Assembly (NCBI RefSeq): GCF_022569295.1
Contig: NZ_JAKFIA010000001.1
Coordinates: 1,193,001-1,257,000, forward strand
Reading direction: 5' to 3'
Source of the DNA: Pedomonas mirosovicensis
Lineage (GTDB): Bacteria; Pseudomonadota; Alphaproteobacteria; Sphingomonadales; Sphingomonadaceae
Length of the DNA stretch: 64,000 nucleotides
Position numbers and translations under genes: made by a program. This document shows, in pieces, positions 4,044 to 46,466 of this stretch. A model generated the notes under the pieces. It saw only the letters and a program-made list of their open reading frames with translations. It was not told the origin of the DNA and made no database searches. Each line of letters begins with the position of its first letter. Within the stretch, counting starts at the first letter, position 1.

Positions 4044-5255
4044 TCACGCCACCGGATTTTCCGCCGTGGCGGCGGCGTAGCGCTCCAGCCCCTGGGCGAG
4101 GTCGTTGATGAGGTCCTGCGGGTCTTCGAGGCCGATGTGGAGGCGCAGCATGGGGTGGTTGGTGTGCCAGCGGGTGGCGGTGCGGATGCTTGCCGGGTTG
4201 ATGGGCAGGATGAGGCTTTCATAGCCGCCCCAGGAGAAGCCCATCTTGAAGTGATGCATGTGGTCGACCATCGCCGCGAGGTCGGCGCGCTGGCCCCGGT
4301 TCAGCACCACGGCGAAGAGGCCGGTTGCGCCCTTGAAGTCGCGCTTCCACAGCTCATGGCCGGGGCAGCCGGGCAGGGCGGGGTGGATGACGCGCTCCAC
4401 CAGCGGGTGCTCGGCCAGCCACTGGGCGACACGCAAGCCGCTGGCGTGATGGCGTTCCAGCCGCACGTCGAGGGTGCGAAGGCCGCGCAGGGCGAGCATG
4501 GCGTCGTCCGGCCCGACGCAGTGGCCGAGGCGGGCGGTGGCGGCCTTGAGCGGGCCGAGCCACTGTTCGTTGGCGGTGACGGCGCCCATCATCAGATCCG
4601 AGTGGCCGCCCACGTACTTGGTGAGGGACTGGGCGCACATGTCCACGCCCAGCGGCAGGCTCGGCTGGTAGAGGGAGGTGGCCCAGGTGTTGTCGAGGAT
4701 GACCGCCGCGCCGTGGGCGTGGGCGACTTCGGCGATGGCGGGCAGATCCTGCACCTCGAAGGTGAGGGAGCCGGGGGATTCGGTGAACACCGCCCGGGTG
4801 TTGGGGCGGATGAGCTCCGCGATGCCAGCACCGATGGTGGGGTCGTAGTAGGTGGTCTCAACGCCGAGCGGGGCCAGCATCTTGTCGCAGAAGGCGCGGG
4901 TGGGCTCGTAAACGCTGTCCACCATCAGGATATGCTCGCCGCCGCCCTTGAGCGTGGCAAACAGTGCGGTCGAGATGGCGGCGACGCCCGAGGGGAACAG
5001 CTTGGTGCCCGCAGCGCCCGGCTCGAGCCGGGTGAGCGCTTCTTCCAGCGCCCAGGTGGTCGGCGTGCCGTGGCGGCCATAGAACAGGCCCCCGCCGGGG
5101 TTACGCAGGGCAGCATCGAACGCGGCGAGCGTCGGGAAGACGCAGGTGGAGGCGTGGTAAACCGGCGGGTTCACCACGCCGTGGGTCCATTCCGGGCGGC
5201 GTCCGCCCTCGATGACCTGAGTTGCGGTTCGGTGTGCTGCCGTCTTGTCCGTCAT
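4044..5255 (-). CDS. metC: Cystathionine beta-lyase
   Basis: A 403-residue PLP enzyme of the Cys/Met metabolism family, which cleaves cystathionine to homocysteine, pyruvate and ammonia in methionine synthesis. The PLP lysine is in the conserved QSLTKYVGGHSD. The N-terminal VNPPVYHASTCVF and the C-terminal SWGGYESL / RLHIGLEDPQDL are typical of MetC rather than of cystathionine gamma-synthase. Length is normal. The stop of the sulfurtransferase gene lies 18 bases upstream of the start, so sseA-metC is a likely operon concerned with sulfur amino acids. Confidence 0.92.
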   Translation of the reverse strand: MTDKTAAHRTATQVIEGGRRPEWTHGVVNPPVYHASTCVFPTLAAFDAALRNPGGGLFYGRHGTPTTWALEEALTRLEPGAAGTKLFPSGVAAISTALFATLKGGGEHILMVDSVYEPTRAFCDKMLAPLGVETTYYDPTIGAGIAELIRPNTRAVFTESPGSLTFEVQDLPAIAEVAHAHGAAVILDNTWATSLYQPSLPLGVDMCAQSLTKYVGGHSDLMMGAVTANEQWLGPLKAATARLGHCVGPDDAMLALRGLRTLDVRLERHHASGLRVAQWLAEHPLVERVIHPALPGCPGHELWKRDFKGATGLFAVVLNRGQRADLAAMVDHMHHFKMGFSWGGYESLILPINPASIRTATRWHTNHPMLRLHIGLEDPQDLINDLAQGLERYAAATAENPVA

Positions 5256-25173: not shown

Positions 25174-26175
25174 TTACGGTCCGCCCCGCCCGCCTGTGGC
25201 ACCATAGACCTGGCCGGTGGCGTAGCTGGCATCGGCGGCGGCGAGTTGCACGTAGATGGATGCCAGCTCGGCGGGCTGGCCGGGGCGGCCCAGGGGCGTA
25301 TTCTGCCCGAAGGTCGGGATTTTGTCGGCAGGTTGGCCGCCGGTGACCTGAAGCGGGGTCCATACCGGCCCCGGCGCCACGGCATTGACCCGAATGCCCC
25401 GCTTGGCCAGCTGCTTGGCCAGAACCTTGGCGTAGATCATGTTGGCGGCCTTGGTCTGGGCATAGTCGAACAGGTTCTCGGGCGGCTCGTAGGCAACGAC
25501 CGAGCTGGTGATGATGATCGATGAACCCGGCTTCAGATAGGGCAGCGCCGCCTTGGTGATCCAGAAGGGCGCATAGACGTTGGTCTTCATCGTCCAGTCG
25601 AACTGCTCGGTGGTGATTTCCGTGAACAGGTCGTGGCTCTGCTGGCGACCAGCGTTGTTGACCAGAATGTCCAGACCGCCGAGCTGACGCACGGCATCCT
25701 GCACCAGTTGATTGCAGAAGGCCTCGTTCCGGATGTCGCCCGGGATGGGCGCGGCGCGCCGTCCGGCGGAGGTGATGAGCTGCACGACCTCCCGGGCGTC
25801 CGGCTCTTCGTCGGGAAGATAATTGATCGCGACATCAGCGCCTTCCCGTGCAAAGGCGATGGCGGCCGCGCGGCCCATGCCGGAGTCTCCTCCGGTAATC
25901 AGTGCCTTGCGGCCCGCCAGCCGACCGGAGCCGCGATAGCTGGTCTCGCCGTGGTCGGGTTTGGGCTGCATCTTGCCTGCGAGACCGGGCCAGGGCTGCT
26001 GCTGGGCCGGAAAGGGTGGACGGGGATAGGCCGTCGTCGGATCACGGGGCTGCGCCGCGGTTCCCGCACCCTGCTGCTGCGCGAGGGCAGGAGCGGCAAC
26101 GCCCGCCACCAGACCGGCAGCCATGCCGCCCATCACACGGCGGCGGGAAGGAGACTCAGGTGTATCGGCGCTCAT
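25174..26175 (-). CDS. SDR family oxidoreductase with Tat-type signal peptide
   Basis: A 333-residue short-chain dehydrogenase. The cofactor loop is ITGGDSGMGRAAAIAFA, the catalytic serine precedes VVAYEPPENLF, and the YAQTKAAN segment supplies the Tyr-x-x-x-Lys pair. It belongs to the YhxD/GsP39 group. The N-terminus SRRRVMGGMAAGLVAGVAA followed by PALAQQQ has the look of a twin-arginine signal with an AxA cleavage site, unusual for an NAD(P)-dependent SDR. ATG at 26175 chosen: ggagccgatc precedes it. The coding frame stays open upstream but without a ribosome site. Confidence 0.85.
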   Translation of the reverse strand: MSADTPESPSRRRVMGGMAAGLVAGVAAPALAQQQGAGTAAQPRDPTTAYPRPPFPAQQQPWPGLAGKMQPKPDHGETSYRGSGRLAGRKALITGGDSGMGRAAAIAFAREGADVAINYLPDEEPDAREVVQLITSAGRRAAPIPGDIRNEAFCNQLVQDAVRQLGGLDILVNNAGRQQSHDLFTEITTEQFDWTMKTNVYAPFWITKAALPYLKPGSSIIITSSVVAYEPPENLFDYAQTKAANMIYAKVLAKQLAKRGIRVNAVAPGPVWTPLQVTGGQPADKIPTFGQNTPLGRPGQPAELASIYVQLAAADASYATGQVYGATGGRGGP

Positions 26176-40811: not shown

Positions 40812-41530
40812 GCGGTGAAACTCCTGCCGACCGATCCGCCGCCGTCGACGAACAGGGTCTGCCCGGTGATGTAACTGGCATCCTCGGAGAGCAGGAAGGC
40901 GATGGCCGCGGCGATCTCCTCCGGCTTGCCGAGCCGTCGCATCGGGATCATGGACAGGAAACGGCCTTCGGCCTCGCTCCCAACCGGCGTGTTGCGGCGG
41001 AACATCTCCGTCTCGACGGGGCCGGGCGCCACCGCATTGACGGTGATGCCCGTCTCGGCCAACTCCATCGCCCAGGTACGCGTGAGGCTGTTGATCGCCG
41101 CCTTGGCCGCCGCATAGCCGCTGCGTAGAGGAATTCCGGTGGTCACCAGGCTGGTGACGTTTACGATCCTGCCCCAACCCTTGGCCTTCATCGCAGGGAG
41201 GATCGCCTGCACCGTCTGGATCGTCGGATGGATATTGACGCGCAGCATCTCGTCCACATCATCAAGGTCGATTTCGCCAACCGGATGCAACCGGGCCAGC
41301 CCGACATTATTGACGACGCCATCGAAAGAATGGCGTTGCGCGAGATCGGCGAAGGCCTGGCCGGACGCCTTGCTGTCGTTGAGGTCGATCGATACCAGCG
41401 TGCCGGGGAACTCGGGATCCTGCCCGCGAGCGATGCCGACGACCTGGTGGCCTGCCGCAGCAAGCCGGTTCGAGAGGGCGCGGCCGATGCCCTTGCTCGC
41501 GCCTGTAATGAGAAATTTCCGTCCGCTCAT
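40808..41530 (-). CDS. SDR family oxidoreductase
   Basis: A 240-residue classical short-chain dehydrogenase: ITGASKGIGRALSNRLA (cofactor), NNVGLARLHP (NNxG), serine in VTSLVTTG, and YAAAKAAI (catalytic Tyr and Lys). Overlaps of 4 bases on both sides tie it to the TetR gene upstream and the SnoaL-like gene downstream. Substrate unknown. Confidence 0.9.
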   Translation of the reverse strand: MSGRKFLITGASKGIGRALSNRLAAAGHQVVGIARGQDPEFPGTLVSIDLNDSKASGQAFADLAQRHSFDGVVNNVGLARLHPVGEIDLDDVDEMLRVNIHPTIQTVQAILPAMKAKGWGRIVNVTSLVTTGIPLRSGYAAAKAAINSLTRTWAMELAETGITVNAVAPGPVETEMFRRNTPVGSEAEGRFLSMIPMRRLGKPEEIAAAIAFLLSEDASYITGQTLFVDGGGSVGRSFTA

Positions 41531-42144
41531 GATAGACTCCTGATTGCCTGGGGGGTGAGGGGTGGCAGGCGCAGCAGCGCGAGCGTCTGCCCGACCGCGC
41601 CCGTCAGCAGCGGCCTTTCCGGGCGAACCCGCGCCAGAACGCGCACGCCCAGCAGCACCACTAACAGTTGGCGCGCGGCATCCTCGGCCGAATGGTCTGG
41701 CGAAATGTCACCGCATTCCTGCCCCGCGGCGAAGCGGCTGCGGAAGAAGCTCTCGATGAGTTTCAATTCATGCGCGATGATGCCGCGGAATTCCGCGTCC
41801 TGCGGCGATGCCTCCAGCGCGGAGTTCACCAACATGCAGCCACGCTGCAGGGCGTCCTCCAGGGATCGCTCGATCGTGTCCTCGAAAAAGCCGGTGATTG
41901 CCTGCCCCGGCGAGGCTGTCGCCTCAAGGTGCGCCATCTTCTCGCGCAGACGGCCGAGATAATGGTCGAGGGCGCGCCGGAACAGCCCGCGCTTGTCGCC
42001 GAAGGCGGCGTACATGCTGGAAGGTGTCAATCCCGTCCGGGCGGCGAGGTCACGGGTGGATGTTGCCTCGTAACCCTTGGTCCAGAAGATGTCGCTCGCG
42101 GCATCGAGCACAGCCTGTTCGTCGAATTCGCGCGGTCTTGCCAT
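41527..42144 (-). CDS. TetR/AcrR family transcriptional regulator
   Basis: A 205-residue repressor. The helix-turn-helix is in residues 8-55 (AVLDAASDIFWTKGYEATST; AARTGLTPSSMYAAFGDKRG). The C-terminal ligand domain includes QRGCMLVNSALEASPQD, the TetR_C_11 or YcdC-like pattern. It heads the TetR-SDR-SnoaL operon. Two operator-like repeats lie just upstream, so it probably represses its own operon until a small molecule binds. Confidence 0.92.
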   Translation of the reverse strand: MARPREFDEQAVLDAASDIFWTKGYEATSTRDLAARTGLTPSSMYAAFGDKRGLFRRALDHYLGRLREKMAHLEATASPGQAITGFFEDTIERSLEDALQRGCMLVNSALEASPQDAEFRGIIAHELKLIESFFRSRFAAGQECGDISPDHSAEDAARQLLVVLLGVRVLARVRPERPLLTGAVGQTLALLRLPPLTPQAIRSLS

Positions 42145-42165
42145 GAGTCATCCCGAGCATCGTTG

Positions 42166-42220
42166 TTATGGAGCGGTTGTTCCATAAAGTGCGCTGAAAA
42201 TGGATCAATCGCTCCATAAT
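42166..42220 (-). promoter_or_regulatory. Paired operator-like repeats in front of the TetR gene
   Basis: Box 1 at 42166-42187 is the palindrome-like ttatggagcggttgttccat (plus aa). Box 2 at 42197-42220 on the opposite strand reads attatggagcgattgatcca. The two share tatggagcg-ttg-tccat with few differences, in inverted orientation 10 bases apart. Position 21 bases upstream of the TetR ATG fits autoregulation. Confidence 0.75.
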
Positions 42221-42647
42221 GTCAAGCGCCATCGCGGATGGATGTTTCCATGGGCGGCGTGGTGGTCGGCTGGCGAGCGAAATTTTATTTTAGCTGGGCA
42301 GGAAAACGGTACGAATATGGAACATAAAAGTTTGAAAAATGCGTTGATTTGAGGGGATGAATCACGCTCTGTTAGTCCTGCGTTCATCTTCGATGCAGGA
42401 TGATAAGCTTGCTTACGATGATACGAGTACGAAATAGTAGCGTTACGATTAGAATGACTGTTCGTCCTACCGCGTAATTACCATTTCATCTCTGTAAATT
42501 GCGTCCCGGCCTGCGCGAGTCTGTTCCTGCTCGGTTGTAATCGCGCAGCGTCTTTCAGCCGGGCATGTATCGACGTGCCTGTTCCAGTCATTTGTAGTCA
42601 TGTCCGGGGATGCAGCGGTCCCGGTTTCCGCCTGGGAGGGAAGAAAC
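42221..42647. other. AT-rich non-coding stretch between TetR and hypothetical gene
   Basis: About 430 bases of lower GC with no gene-like frame and no recognisable repeat. It must hold the promoter of the hypothetical gene at 42648 and the far side of the TetR promoter. No terminator, tRNA or attachment-site copy of the tRNA-Lys 3' end was found in it. Confidence 0.5.
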
Positions 42648-43235
42648 ATGGGATTGGACTGTAAAAACCCGAAGGGGAAAGGGGAGGCGATGGCACCCGC
42701 TGACATCGAATGGGTCTTTGGAGTTGTCCGGGCGGGGCGCGACTACCAGGGCATGGAGCATGCCAAATCTGGTGGGTGCGGCTACGAATTTACCGCCACC
42801 ATTATTGTTCGAGGGCGCACGGCCGAGATCGTTGGCGGCGCCGGGCGGCTAACGCCCGCGCTGGCCAAGGAAATCGAGATCGTGCTTCACTCCCATGGCA
42901 TCACCACGGCCATCTGGGAGCGTTATAACGGCGATCCCAAGCGGCTGGTAAGGGCAACGCGCGGCCGCTCCGGCAAGGAGAATGGCAAGGCCGATCCCGG
43001 CCCCGACAGCCGGACTGCGGACAGCCCAGTGCCGGATCATCCCAGCCCTGGTGGGCAAAATCCATGCGCCCAAAACCTGCCAGGCCACCATGGTCTCGCA
43101 ACGCTGATGAACGGCAACGCGACGCTGATGAACGGCTTTCGCCAGGAGATGGAGACCGCGTTCGTCAAGCCGCCCGGAGGCGGACGCGCCCGTGACCTGG
43201 AGCGGAAGATGCATCAGAAGGTTGGAAATGGATGA
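42648..43235 (+). CDS. Hypothetical protein
   Basis: A 195-residue protein. The N-terminal half looks ordered (WVFGVVRAGRDYQGMEHAKS; EFTATIIVRGRTAEIVGGAG; LAKEIEIVLHSHGITTAIWE). The C-terminal half is Pro/Gly/Asn-rich, with a repeated ATLMNG pair (LATLMNGNATLMNGFRQEM). No transmembrane segment or known motif. ATG at 42648 chosen because gggaggg lies 9 bases upstream; a GTG-type start further up lacks one. No family recognised. Confidence 0.6.
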   Translation: MGLDCKNPKGKGEAMAPADIEWVFGVVRAGRDYQGMEHAKSGGCGYEFTATIIVRGRTAEIVGGAGRLTPALAKEIEIVLHSHGITTAIWERYNGDPKRLVRATRGRSGKENGKADPGPDSRTADSPVPDHPSPGGQNPCAQNLPGHHGLATLMNGNATLMNGFRQEMETAFVKPPGGGRARDLERKMHQKVGNG

Positions 43236-43350
43236 AGCCGGGCCGATAGGTTCCGGCTTTTCCTATCCGGTGTCCGGTCCGGTGTTCCGGCAGGCGGCAA
43301 AGCCCGCCTTGCCGGCCGGAGCGCGGGTTCGCGCGGCGCTCGGGGCAGCG

Positions 43351-43701
43351 TCAGGACGGGCCGTATGAGGACTTGTTCTCCTCCTCGGAGTCGGTGTCCT
43401 CATCCTCGTCGTCCTCCTCCTCGTCTTCGTCGTAGTCCTCGTCCTCCTCCTCCTCGTCTTCTTCCTCTTCCTCGTCTTCGTCGTCCTCATCCTCTTCATC
43501 GAGGGTGAAGCCCACCTTCAGCACAACCTGATAGTGGCTGACTTCGCCGTCCTCGATATGGCCGCGGATTTGCTGGACCTCGAACCAGCGCAAATGGCGC
43601 AGCGACGAGCCGGCCCGGGCGACTGCCGTTAGAATGGCATCGTCAATGCTCGTCTCGGACGAGCCTGCCAGCTCAACGATCTTGTAGACATGATCCTGCA
43701 T
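43351..43701 (-). CDS. Dodecin with long acidic C-terminal tail
   Basis: A 116-residue protein. Residues 1-70 are a complete dodecin: [60 protein letters not shown], with the flavin-stacking tryptophan. Dodecins are dodecameric shells that store flavin or CoA. The last 45 residues are almost wholly Asp and Glu, ending NKSSYGPS. Typical dodecins stop near residue 70. ATG at 43701 chosen for the ggagtgagg site before it. Confidence 0.92.
43378..43504 (+). repeat. Low-complexity GAA/GAC-type triplet tract
   Basis: On the plus strand the DNA is a run of tcc, tcg, tct and tca triplets (for example cctcgtcttcgtcgtagtcc), encoding the Asp/Glu tail of dodecin on the minus strand. Such tracts are prone to slippage in replication and in sequencing. 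Confidence 0.85.
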
Positions 43702-43929
43702 GGGCCTCACTCCTGCCATCGCCCCTGCTTGGCGGTTTAAGGACAACGCCACCTGCAAATGACAGTTCCCCGGCCCGGCGGGCGGCTGGGCGCACCGTCG
43801 CGTCGCCTCCGCAGCGCAGACGAGTGGCCATAGGGCAAGGCAGGTGATATGTCGCTTGCCAACGAAAGGCGGGGGCTGGAGCCATACCGGCCCCTCGGGG
43901 GTTCCGTAGCTTCGCGCAGCAGGAAGAGC

Positions 43930-45138
43930 ATGGGAAGTCGCATGTTTACGCGTATTGATCGGTACATGGGCCGGCTGATGATCGTGCCGATGGTCGCAAC
44001 GCTCACCATTGCCGCCATGCTCCTACTGCTGGAGCGCATGCTCAACCTGTTTAACTTCGTTATCAATGAGGGCGGGCCGGTTTCGGTGGTGTGGCGGATG
44101 CTCGCCAACCTGATGCCGGAGCAGTTCGGCTTCGCCCTGCCGATCAGCCTGCTCCTCGGCGTGATGATGGCGGTGCGGACACTGGCGCTGAACAGCGAAC
44201 TGGATGCCCTGCTGGGCTCGGGCGTCAGCCACGGGCGGCTGCTGCGAGTGCCGCTCGCCATCGCCGGGGTGCTGGCGCTGCTGACCGTCTGGCTGGTGGG
44301 CTACGAGCAACCCTATTCCCGCTATGCCTACGAGCGGCTGCGGTTCGAATTGCAGAGCGGCGCGCTGGGGGCCAGCATCAAGGTGGGCGACTTTGCTCAT
44401 CTGGGCGATAACATCGTGATGCGGGTCGAGGGCTCGGAAGACGGTGGCCAGAAGCTGCGCGGCGTCTTCCTGCGGGCCGAGGAAAAGAATTACGGCACGG
44501 TGGTTGCCTCGGCCGAGCAGGCACGGTTCCTGGCGACGGACAATCCGGATGTGCTGCTGCTGCGTTTGTTCCGGGGCGTGCTGGTGCAGGACAAGACGAG
44601 CCAGACCGCGCCGCGCGCGCTCAGCTTCAACCTGCACGACATCCCCATCAACCTGCCACGCCTGGAATCTTTCCGCGCCAGGGGCAAGCAGCTGGAGTTC
44701 ACTCTCTCGGAGTTGTGGAGCGCCAGCGGAGATCCTGACCGGTCGGCGGAACTTCAGCGCCAGGCGCGCGGCACCTTGCACCGGCGGCTGGTTCAGATGG
44801 CGGTGTTGCTGCCCCTGCCGTTCCTGGGGCTGGCGCTGGCGGTGCCGCCCAAGCGCAGCAGCACGTCGCTAGGTATTTTCGTTGGCATCTTCCTCCTCCT
44901 GCTGCTGAATGAGTTCAACAAGGCAGGGGAGGCGGCCGTGCAACTGGGCGCTGCGCCGCCCTGGCTCGCCATCTGGGTGCCGTTTGCCGGTTTTTGCGTC
45001 CTCTCGGCCGGGGCCTATTGGGTGCTGGTGCGCCGGGTGGGCGGCCATCCGCTCTCGCTGCTGTTCATGGTCACCGACAGGCTGGGCCGGCTTCTCAGCC
45101 AGGTGCAGAAGCGCCTGCCACGCCTGGGGCGGTCCTAG
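43930..45138 (+). CDS. lptF: LPS export permease LptF
   Basis: A 402-residue YjgP/YjgQ-family permease with about six transmembrane helices: an N-terminal bundle ([37 protein letters not shown]), a periplasmic beta-jellyroll (residues about 130-280) and a C-terminal bundle. It is half of the LptFG channel that moves lipopolysaccharide out of the inner membrane. LptG is not adjacent here. ATG at 43930 chosen after aggaagagc; the ATG at 43942 is equally possible. Confidence 0.88.
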
Positions 45139-45182
45139 GGGCAGGGCATCTCCCCCATGAGCGAGAGCCTGGGAGGGCGCCC

Positions 45183-46466
45183 TTAGCGCAGGATGCGGAC
45201 CGAGGCGCTGTGCGCCGTGGCGGTGCGGGCTCCACCGGTGGCGTGCAGGCTCAGCACTTCCCGGTAATGGCCGACCAGCGTTTCCATCACCTTATCCCAG
45301 TCGTACTGGGCGCTGAGCTTGCGGCCTGCCGCGCCCATGTGGCGGCGCAGGATGCCGTCTTGAATGAGTTCCTGGGTGCGGTCGGTATAGCCCTCGATGC
45401 TGGAGGGCGTGATGAGATAACCGCTGGTTCCCTGTACCACGAGCGACTTGCTGCCGGTGGCGTCGGCGCAGATGGCGGGCAGGCCGGAGGCCATGGCTTC
45501 CAGCGTGACGTTGCCGAACGCCTCGGTGGTGCTGGGGTTGATGAAGATGTCGGAACTGGCGTAGGCGCGGGCCAGATCATCCCCGCCGAGAAAGCCGGTA
45601 AAGATGGCGCCGGGCAGCCGCTGCTCCATGTACTGGCGCTCCGGGCCTTCGCCGACGATCATGACCTTGTGCGGCACGCGGCGCTGGCCAAGGCCCTCGG
45701 ACAGGGCGGCAAGCACATCCAGCCCCTTTTCCAGAACCAGGCGGCCGACGAACAGCAGCACCACCTCGTCCGGGCCGATGCCGAGGGACTGGCGCCAGCC
45801 CCAGTCGCGCCGGCCGGGGTGGAACTGGCGGCGATCAACGCCCCGGCTCCAGATGCGGATGTTGCGGGCCAATCCTTCGTTCAGCAGCGACTCGGCGGTG
45901 CAGGCGCACGGCGCGTAGGTTTGGGCGCACTGGTGGTAGAAGCGGCGCATGCGACGCAGCACAACCGGGGAGAGCCACTCCAGCCCATAGTATTTCAGGT
46001 AGGTCTCGAAGCGGGTGTGGAAGGAGGCGACGGCCGGAATGCCAAGGCGGCGGGCCTGCTTCAAGGCGGAGAAGCCGAGCAGGTCGGGCGCGGAGAGGTG
46101 GAGCAGGGTGGGGCGGAAGCGCGCCAGATCTTCCTTCACCGCGCGGGGCATCCCGAGGGCAATACGGTATTCGGCCCGTCGCGGCAGGGGAATGGAGGGG
46201 ACGGAAATCAGCGTGCCGGCAGGCTCGAACGCCGGCGTTGCGGTGGTGGGGGAGTAGACCCTGACCGGAATGCCCTGGCGCTCCAGGTAGGCAACCAGGC
46301 GGTTCAGCGTGAGGTTCGCGCCGTCTCGCACGTAATTGTAGTTGCCTGAGAAAACCGCGACCCGCAGTTCAGGAGCGGAGGACAGGGCTTGGGTGTTTTG
46401 GGTCACAGCGTGCTGGTTGCTGTCGTCCTGTGAATCCAAAACCGGCATTTTTTCCGCCTGTAACAT
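45183..46466 (-). CDS. Glycosyltransferase family 4, alpha-mannosyl/sulfoquinovosyl-transferase-like
   Basis: A 427-residue GT-B fold enzyme. The N-terminal acceptor half opens LRVAVFSGNYNYVRDGANLT, with VASFHTRFETYLKYYGLEW. The C-terminal donor half has LLFVGRLVLEKGLDVLAALS and the E-x7-E motif in TEAFGNVTLEAMASGLPA. It resembles GDP-mannose- or UDP-sulfoquinovose-dependent lipid glycosyltransferases of the SqdX/MgtA type. Donor and acceptor are not certain. A second start at 46448 (MPVLD) is nearer a ribosome site. Confidence 0.87.
   Translation of the reverse strand: MLQAEKMPVLDSQDDSNQHAVTQNTQALSSAPELRVAVFSGNYNYVRDGANLTLNRLVAYLERQGIPVRVYSPTTATPAFEPAGTLISVPSIPLPRRAEYRIALGMPRAVKEDLARFRPTLLHLSAPDLLGFSALKQARRLGIPAVASFHTRFETYLKYYGLEWLSPVVLRRMRRFYHQCAQTYAPCACTAESLLNEGLARNIRIWSRGVDRRQFHPGRRDWGWRQSLGIGPDEVVLLFVGRLVLEKGLDVLAALSEGLGQRRVPHKVMIVGEGPERQYMEQRLPGAIFTGFLGGDDLARAYASSDIFINPSTTEAFGNVTLEAMASGLPAICADATGSKSLVVQGTSGYLITPSSIEGYTDRTQELIQDGILRRHMGAAGRKLSAQYDWDKVMETLVGHYREVLSLHATGGARTATAHSASVRILR

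Follow-up and report, generated by a model that had tools for sequence, protein, structure and literature searches.

A rare dodecin with a polyacidic C-terminal tail in the genome of Pedomonas mirosovicensis

A small gene of Pedomonas mirosovicensis raises the question of why an otherwise normal dodecin should continue past its fold into a long run of aspartate and glutamate, and whether any other dodecin does the same. The window analysed here is the whole stretch of 64,000 nucleotides that surrounds the gene (positions 1,193,001 to 1,257,000 of contig NZ_JAKFIA010000001.1, assembly GCF_022569295.1), in which the following features were located.

43351..43701, minus strand: dodecin gene with an acidic C-terminal extension (116 amino acids plus stop; PF07311 and NF043052 above their cut-offs)
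43710..43714, minus strand: AGGAG, resembling a ribosome-binding site, 8 bases 5' of the dodecin ATG (read from the sequence)
43498..43689, minus strand: dodecin domain, residues 5-68 (Pfam match, predicted structure, Foldseek match to 2vxa)
43585..43587, minus strand: Trp39, the flavin-site Trp of dodecins, at the position of the Trp of 2vxa (alignment)
43354..43497, minus strand: C-terminal extension, residues 69-116 (37 Asp/Glu, 1 Lys, net charge -36; predicted disordered)
43378..43500, minus strand: acidic run, residues 68-108 (GAN codons throughout, 38 of 41, save for Y90, T103 and S105)

The dodecin domain

Translation of the minus strand of the window gives an open reading frame of 116 amino acids, with its ATG at 43701 and a stop that ends at 43351. 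The initial annotation of this DNA had called the product a dodecin whose fold ends at residue 70 and whose remaining residues are nearly all Asp/Glu. Its identity as a dodecin is borne out by two profiles, PF07311 of Pfam (99.3 bits against a cut-off of 22.5; profile positions 1-64 of 64, residues 5-68) and the NCBIfam dodecin profile NF043052 (116.1 bits against a cut-off of 75; profile positions 2-67 of 67). The structure model, which is that of a monomer built from three sequences (mean pLDDT 73, pTM 0.49), is predicted to contain a strand (residues 6-15), a helix (residues 19-33) and two further strands (residues 37-50 and 53-66) in the beta-alpha-beta-beta fold, with pLDDT of 71-91 per ten-residue block up to residue 70. 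The end of the fold was thus placed closely but not exactly by the initial annotation: it falls at about residues 66-68, where the last predicted strand (53-66) and the domain (to 68) terminate, and not at residue 70.

The top Foldseek match of the model is 2vxa, the dodecin of Halorhodospira halophila (E 5.6e-9, rmsd 1.1, 67% identity), and the 29 PDB matches with E <= 0.001 consist of dodecins and of entries that bear the name of a known one (tt0972, Rv1498A, Rv0379). By sequence, too, 2vxa is the closest solved structure (93.9 bits over residues 1-68). Trp39 and Gln58 align with the Trp and Gln of 2vxa and are invariant in the alignment of three sequences; the position of Gln58 is presumably that of the flavin-contact Gln of dodecins. 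Trp39 is named as the main flavin-binding residue of Rv1498A in the available text of PMC8044443, which describes dodecin as a cofactor storage protein.

Composition and predicted disorder of the tail

The core (residues 1-68) carries 10 Asp/Glu and 6 Lys/Arg, and the 48 residues of the tail that follows (69-116) contain 37 Asp/Glu and a single Lys, for a net charge of -36 per subunit. The 38 residues 71-108 contain 35 Asp/Glu, and the highest number of Asp/Glu in any 40 residues of 47 other genes of the window (at least 150 amino acids long, chosen by a rule of codon-position G+C) is 13, so that the acidity of the tail exceeds chance. The description of everything after the fold as nearly all Asp/Glu stands for most of the tail (37 of 48) and fails for its last eight residues (NKSSYGPS), which are not acidic, since the acidic run stops at residue 108. 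The same annotation's figure of over 400 negative charges on a dodecamer is right if the protein is a dodecamer: by arithmetic, twelve tails would bring 432 net negative charges.

From residue 71 on, the monomer model has pLDDT of 49-62 and no secondary structure, and the tail is predicted to be disordered. There is no His or Cys in the tail and no recognisable metal motif. Residues 68-109 give a sub-threshold match to DNA_pol_phi of Pfam (19.5 bits against a cut-off of 27.6), which was taken to reflect composition only.

Rarity among dodecins

Dodecins were collected by profile search of the 59 nearest genomes (11 of them with a dodecin), 385 genomes of the class (61), 397 of the family (69) and 398 of the phylum (108), sets that overlap and that each include the window's own genome. 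All listed places were sampled except one partial match (31 profile positions, in genome G303), and seven of 144 plasmid records and two dodecins selected by pattern (L020 and L063) were added. The resulting 250 loci, after removal of two with an internal stop (L128 and L269; L095, also marked with an internal stop, was kept), yielded 241 distinct dodecins, almost wholly from Pseudomonadota, in which the region after the domain was read with a profile built from the sampled sequences.

Tails extend at most 6 residues past the domain in 233 of the 241 dodecins. The eight longer tails are that of P. mirosovicensis (48 residues) and those of L311 and L130 (33 each), L002 (22), L082 and L083 (12 each), L105 (9) and L066 (8), and none of the other seven reaches five Asp/Glu. 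Five or more Asp/Glu past the domain were found in three dodecins, namely the present one, L020 (6) and L063 (5), the last two having been chosen for that very feature. Among the 71 dodecins read from the window's family, a tail of more than 5 residues occurs only in the window's protein and L002. At 116 residues, the protein departs from the usual dodecin length, in which the chain ends right after the last strand, a length that is typical of the family and not defining. L311 and L130 are near-identical and come from two genomes; their extensions are not polyacidic, and neither is the extension of L002, which comes from the window's own family.

A wider scan was made of genome_contigs (about 85,000 species) with a DNA pattern encoding K-[hydrophobic]-[G/A/S/T/R]-F-x-[hydrophobic] and then six acidic codons. 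It returned 51 loci, in a scan that is incomplete in that the core of the pattern fits only 33 of the 78 dodecins of a first sample, tails that begin after a linker escape it and the window's genome may lie outside it. The only dodecins among these loci are L020 and L063, both with short acidic ends; the remainder are not dodecins, and many of them are one recurrent Paenibacillus protein. By tblastn, the core has matches in 144 plasmid records, each covering at most 80% of the query, a coverage that masking of the low-complexity tail may have lowered, and the seven plasmid dodecins that were read have tails of at most 6 residues.

In viral_contigs, the acid-tail pattern gave 10 loci, none of them a dodecin, and no relative was confirmed there among 35 stretches that matched a pattern. 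One of 50,697 phage records contains a dodecin-like place (62% identity). A phage origin was rejected, there being no PHROG match at E 0.001 and no confirmed relative in viral_contigs.

No report of a polyacidic dodecin was found in the openly licensed literature searched. The initial annotation knew of no such dodecin and had proposed that widespread dodecins with the same tail would overturn its claim; none came to light within these searches, since a long acidic tail is absent from the other 240 distinct dodecins, from the 51 loci of the incomplete pattern scan and from that literature. The polyacidic-tailed dodecin is rare and is found in one genome.

Origin of the core and of the tail

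The nearest cores among the 241 dodecins belong to four Microvirga plasmid dodecins (L232-L235; 49, 48, 47 and 46 of 64 residues identical, up to 77%), whose tails are only 4 residues long (DEAP, GETP, GETP and GEGP); the core of L260 is identical at 46 of 64 residues. A tree was built from 133 of the 241 dodecins, chosen for a W[FY] motif and an almost complete domain. In it the window's dodecin falls into one group with the four sequences from Microvirga, with L260 and with L250 (98/86, values that come from 64 columns and an unsettled bootstrap). This group stands apart from the tree's 42 dodecins of the window's own family. The grouping with plasmid sequences of Microvirga (Methylobacteriaceae) is no more than suggestive; it fits a core acquired by horizontal transfer from outside the family. 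The acidic tail was probably gained on the window's lineage, because none of the other six members of the group has a tail of more than 4 residues.

The DNA of the tail (43375-43500) has only one counterpart elsewhere in the genome, a 59-base match of 78% inside another open reading frame, which we take to be that of RNase E, and no second copy of the tail was found in the genome by protein. Borrowing of the tail from another gene was rejected on these grounds.

Codon pattern of the tail

The third bases of the 38 GAN codons are G (17), C (12), A (6) and T (3), so that 29 of 38 (76%) end in G or C, versus 69% in the 47 window genes. Self-comparison of the tail at lags of 1-19 codons gives matches of 0.86-0.91 for first positions and 0.94-0.97 for second positions; third positions match at 0.12-0.52 (highest at lag 11), about equal to the 0.33 expected from composition. 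In 20,000 shuffles over lags 1-15, the best lag was not significant for periodicity of the third base (p 0.15) or for the order of Asp and Glu (p 0.08). TRF assigned the tail periods of 3, 9 and 33, of which the 33-bp period (3.1 copies at 80%) is weak because the shuffles gave no significant lag. Recent triplet slippage was rejected, since despite the TRF periods neither the third-position nor the Asp/Glu-order autocorrelation is significant in the shuffles.

Asp and Glu look interchangeable in this tail, with acidity as the property kept, because GA stays almost constant, the third bases vary with ordinary codon usage and there is no significant periodicity. Reasoned from this one sequence and not from conservation, the pattern suggests that tail and core share one reading frame and that the tail is selected for acidity, and it can be read as a sign that the tail is old enough for its synonymous positions to have spread as they do in ordinary genes.

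This pattern bears on two simpler accounts of the tail. According to the first, the original stop was lost and the dodecin was joined to a GA-rich, repeat-prone stretch that is tolerated and does nothing. Such an extension would be in keeping with a singleton in the survey, with nearest cores that stop at most 4 residues past the domain, with TRF periods of 3, 9 and 33, and with the tolerance of dodecins for C-terminal peptide fusions (PMC7414021, in its available text). A neutral repeat, however, should gather changes equally at all three codon positions, whereas here the third positions follow normal codon usage while GA stays in 38 of 41 codons, and a neutral tail is judged very unlikely. 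According to the second, the tail was made by an error of assembly, sequencing or frame, as might be suspected of error-prone, low-complexity DNA, the set searched having one genome of the genus and no independent copy. Against this, the variable base is the third position of the dodecin frame, unbroken over residues 68-108; the other two same-strand frames of the acidic stretch are strongly basic runs; and the genome (3.63 Mb; about 98% complete) consists of 2 contigs. Together these points make an artefact extremely improbable.

Genome neighbourhood and possible partners of the tail

The dodecin gene is divergent from the gene for an LptF/LptG permease (43849-45138) and convergent with an open reading frame of 211 amino acids without a Pfam match (42600-43235). 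A TetR regulator and an SDR dehydrogenase are also on the downstream side of the dodecin gene, and a glycosyltransferase and an SRAP protein on its other side. The frame at 42600-43235 is putatively coding and holds a 21-bp tandem repeat (1.9 copies, 43097-43136, by TRF). No flavin, metal or other cation-related gene was found among the six neighbouring open reading frames scanned. A regulatory RNA was rejected because nothing in 41000-46000 exceeds the gathering score of Rfam, and a promoter and terminator scan of 42100-44100 found nothing. Proteins of the window are not acidic (D+E 11.1%, K+R 11.3% in the 47 genes, a sample of the window and not of the whole genome), which makes a salt-in halophile explanation unlikely. 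Elsewhere in the window, ARAGORN called a 72-base tRNA-Leu(gag) (4516-4587) and an 80-base tRNA-Ala(cgc) (26035-26114), lengths that we assume to be unusual for each type, so that both may be false calls. On a plasmid of Sphingobium xenophagum (L238:601-1401), a dodecin gene sits just upstream of one for a flavin reductase and just after a gene related to enoyl-CoA hydratase, a context that fits flavin supply.

These neighbours and the composition of the tail bear on two more specific functions. One is a high-capacity, low-affinity store of Ca2+, Mg2+, Mn2+ or Fe2+ that would couple the storage of flavin and metal and might be likened to an acidic calcium-storage protein. It draws on the 37 Asp/Glu of each tail, on the 432 net negative charges of twelve, and on the existence of a protein with a dodecin fold that is described as calcium-chelating (Rv0379, 3onr; 29-30% identity by Foldseek). 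In Rv0379, however, calcium is held by the folded core and not by a tail; the present tail has no His, Cys or recognisable metal motif, and the six neighbours scanned include no gene for metal transport or for a response to metals. We regard metal storage as unlikely.

The other function is that of a docking or decoy tail. The acidic tails of HMGB1 or of histone chaperones bind basic partners or compete with nucleic acid, and the tail of the dodecin, which resembles these eukaryotic tails in composition, might likewise bind a flavoenzyme, a ribosomal protein or a nucleoid protein, or compete with nucleic acid for such a partner. The sub-threshold match to DNA_pol_phi over residues 68-109, taken as composition only, and the exposure of dodecin termini (PMC7414021, available text) are compatible with docking, but the six neighbours scanned offer no obvious partner, and there is no motif and no conserved tail, which leaves docking quite unlikely.

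Proposed role of a polyanionic coat

The reading that we prefer, and to which we give about an even chance, is that of an ordinary dodecamer that binds flavin and wears a disordered, polyanionic coat, by which particles are separated and cations collected. As an otherwise normal bacterial-type dodecin, the protein should, judging by its family membership, form the usual 12-subunit flavin-binding sphere. Each subunit would contribute a disordered tail of which about 41 residues are mostly acidic, and the twelve tails would surround the storage particle with a polyanionic coat. It would be on the outside because dodecin C-termini, as published for the family, sit on the outer surface; in PMC7414021, the termini are exposed at the particle surface. 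Acting most likely through its bulk charge and not through a sequence motif, the coat would separate abundant particles and keep them soluble; it would also push away nucleic acids and other surfaces of negative charge and attract a loose shell of cations such as Mg2+, Ca2+, K+ and polyamines. That the coat exists is strongly indicated; its biological role is what we infer.

C-terminal peptide fusions of the Mycobacterium tuberculosis dodecin offer a precedent in the available text of PMC7414021: they were soluble, with the dodecamer as the main species, and those of its Table 1 are roughly 10-45 residues long, as estimated from masses and linkers. Extensions are not always harmless, because several larger dodecin fusions in the same source went into inclusion bodies or aggregates (PMC7414021). 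A functional coat has against it that 233 of 241 dodecins have no extension beyond 6 residues, that the other proteins of the window are not acidic, that the six neighbours scanned include no cation-related or flavin gene, and that the tail comes from a single genome, where it could be a neutral extension. A second job for the polyanion-coated flavin nanocage, which might gather metal ions or basic clients at its surface and so join flavin handling to that of cations or clients, is put forward tentatively and seems somewhat unlikely.

Dodecins, natural protein cages of small size and high stability, already serve as carriers (PMC7414021), and a charged coat on a natural dodecin would mean that evolution likewise makes additions at the exposed C-terminus. 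With one small folded core and one removable tail, the protein would be a clean system for measuring what a dense disordered polyanion does to solubility, to the binding of cations and to the entry of ligands. Seen in a single genome, the case is a curiosity for as long as neither another example nor a phenotype has come to light.

Comparison with known systems

The dodecin of H. halophila (2vxa) shares the domain of the P. mirosovicensis protein (67% identity, rmsd 1.1) but has 72 residues and no long acidic tail. The Microvirga plasmid dodecins (L232-L235) are alike in the core (46 to 49 of 64 residues identical) and unlike in their 4-residue tails. The carrier made from M. tuberculosis Rv1498A is likewise a sphere that displays C-terminal extensions at its surface, but its extensions, as given in the available text of PMC7414021, are engineered from Gly/Ser or Pro/Ala/Ser linkers with tags or proteins, whereas the present one is natural and polyanionic. 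L020 (Proteobacteria MAG ZC4RG42) and L063 (Cryobacterium cheniae) have acidic ends right after the domain, with only 6 and 5 acidic residues, respectively; small acidic ends arise elsewhere in the dodecin family too. Rv0379 (3onr) has a dodecin-like fold with calcium chelation in its entry title, but at 29-30% identity it is no close relative of the P. mirosovicensis dodecin, ranking below the bacterial flavin dodecins and outside the 12 sequence matches. HMGB1 also has an acidic C-terminal tail, in a eukaryotic protein with a fold unrelated to that of dodecin, and the likeness is one of composition only. The polyacidic tail is a new feature within the known dodecin family, and no new kind of system.
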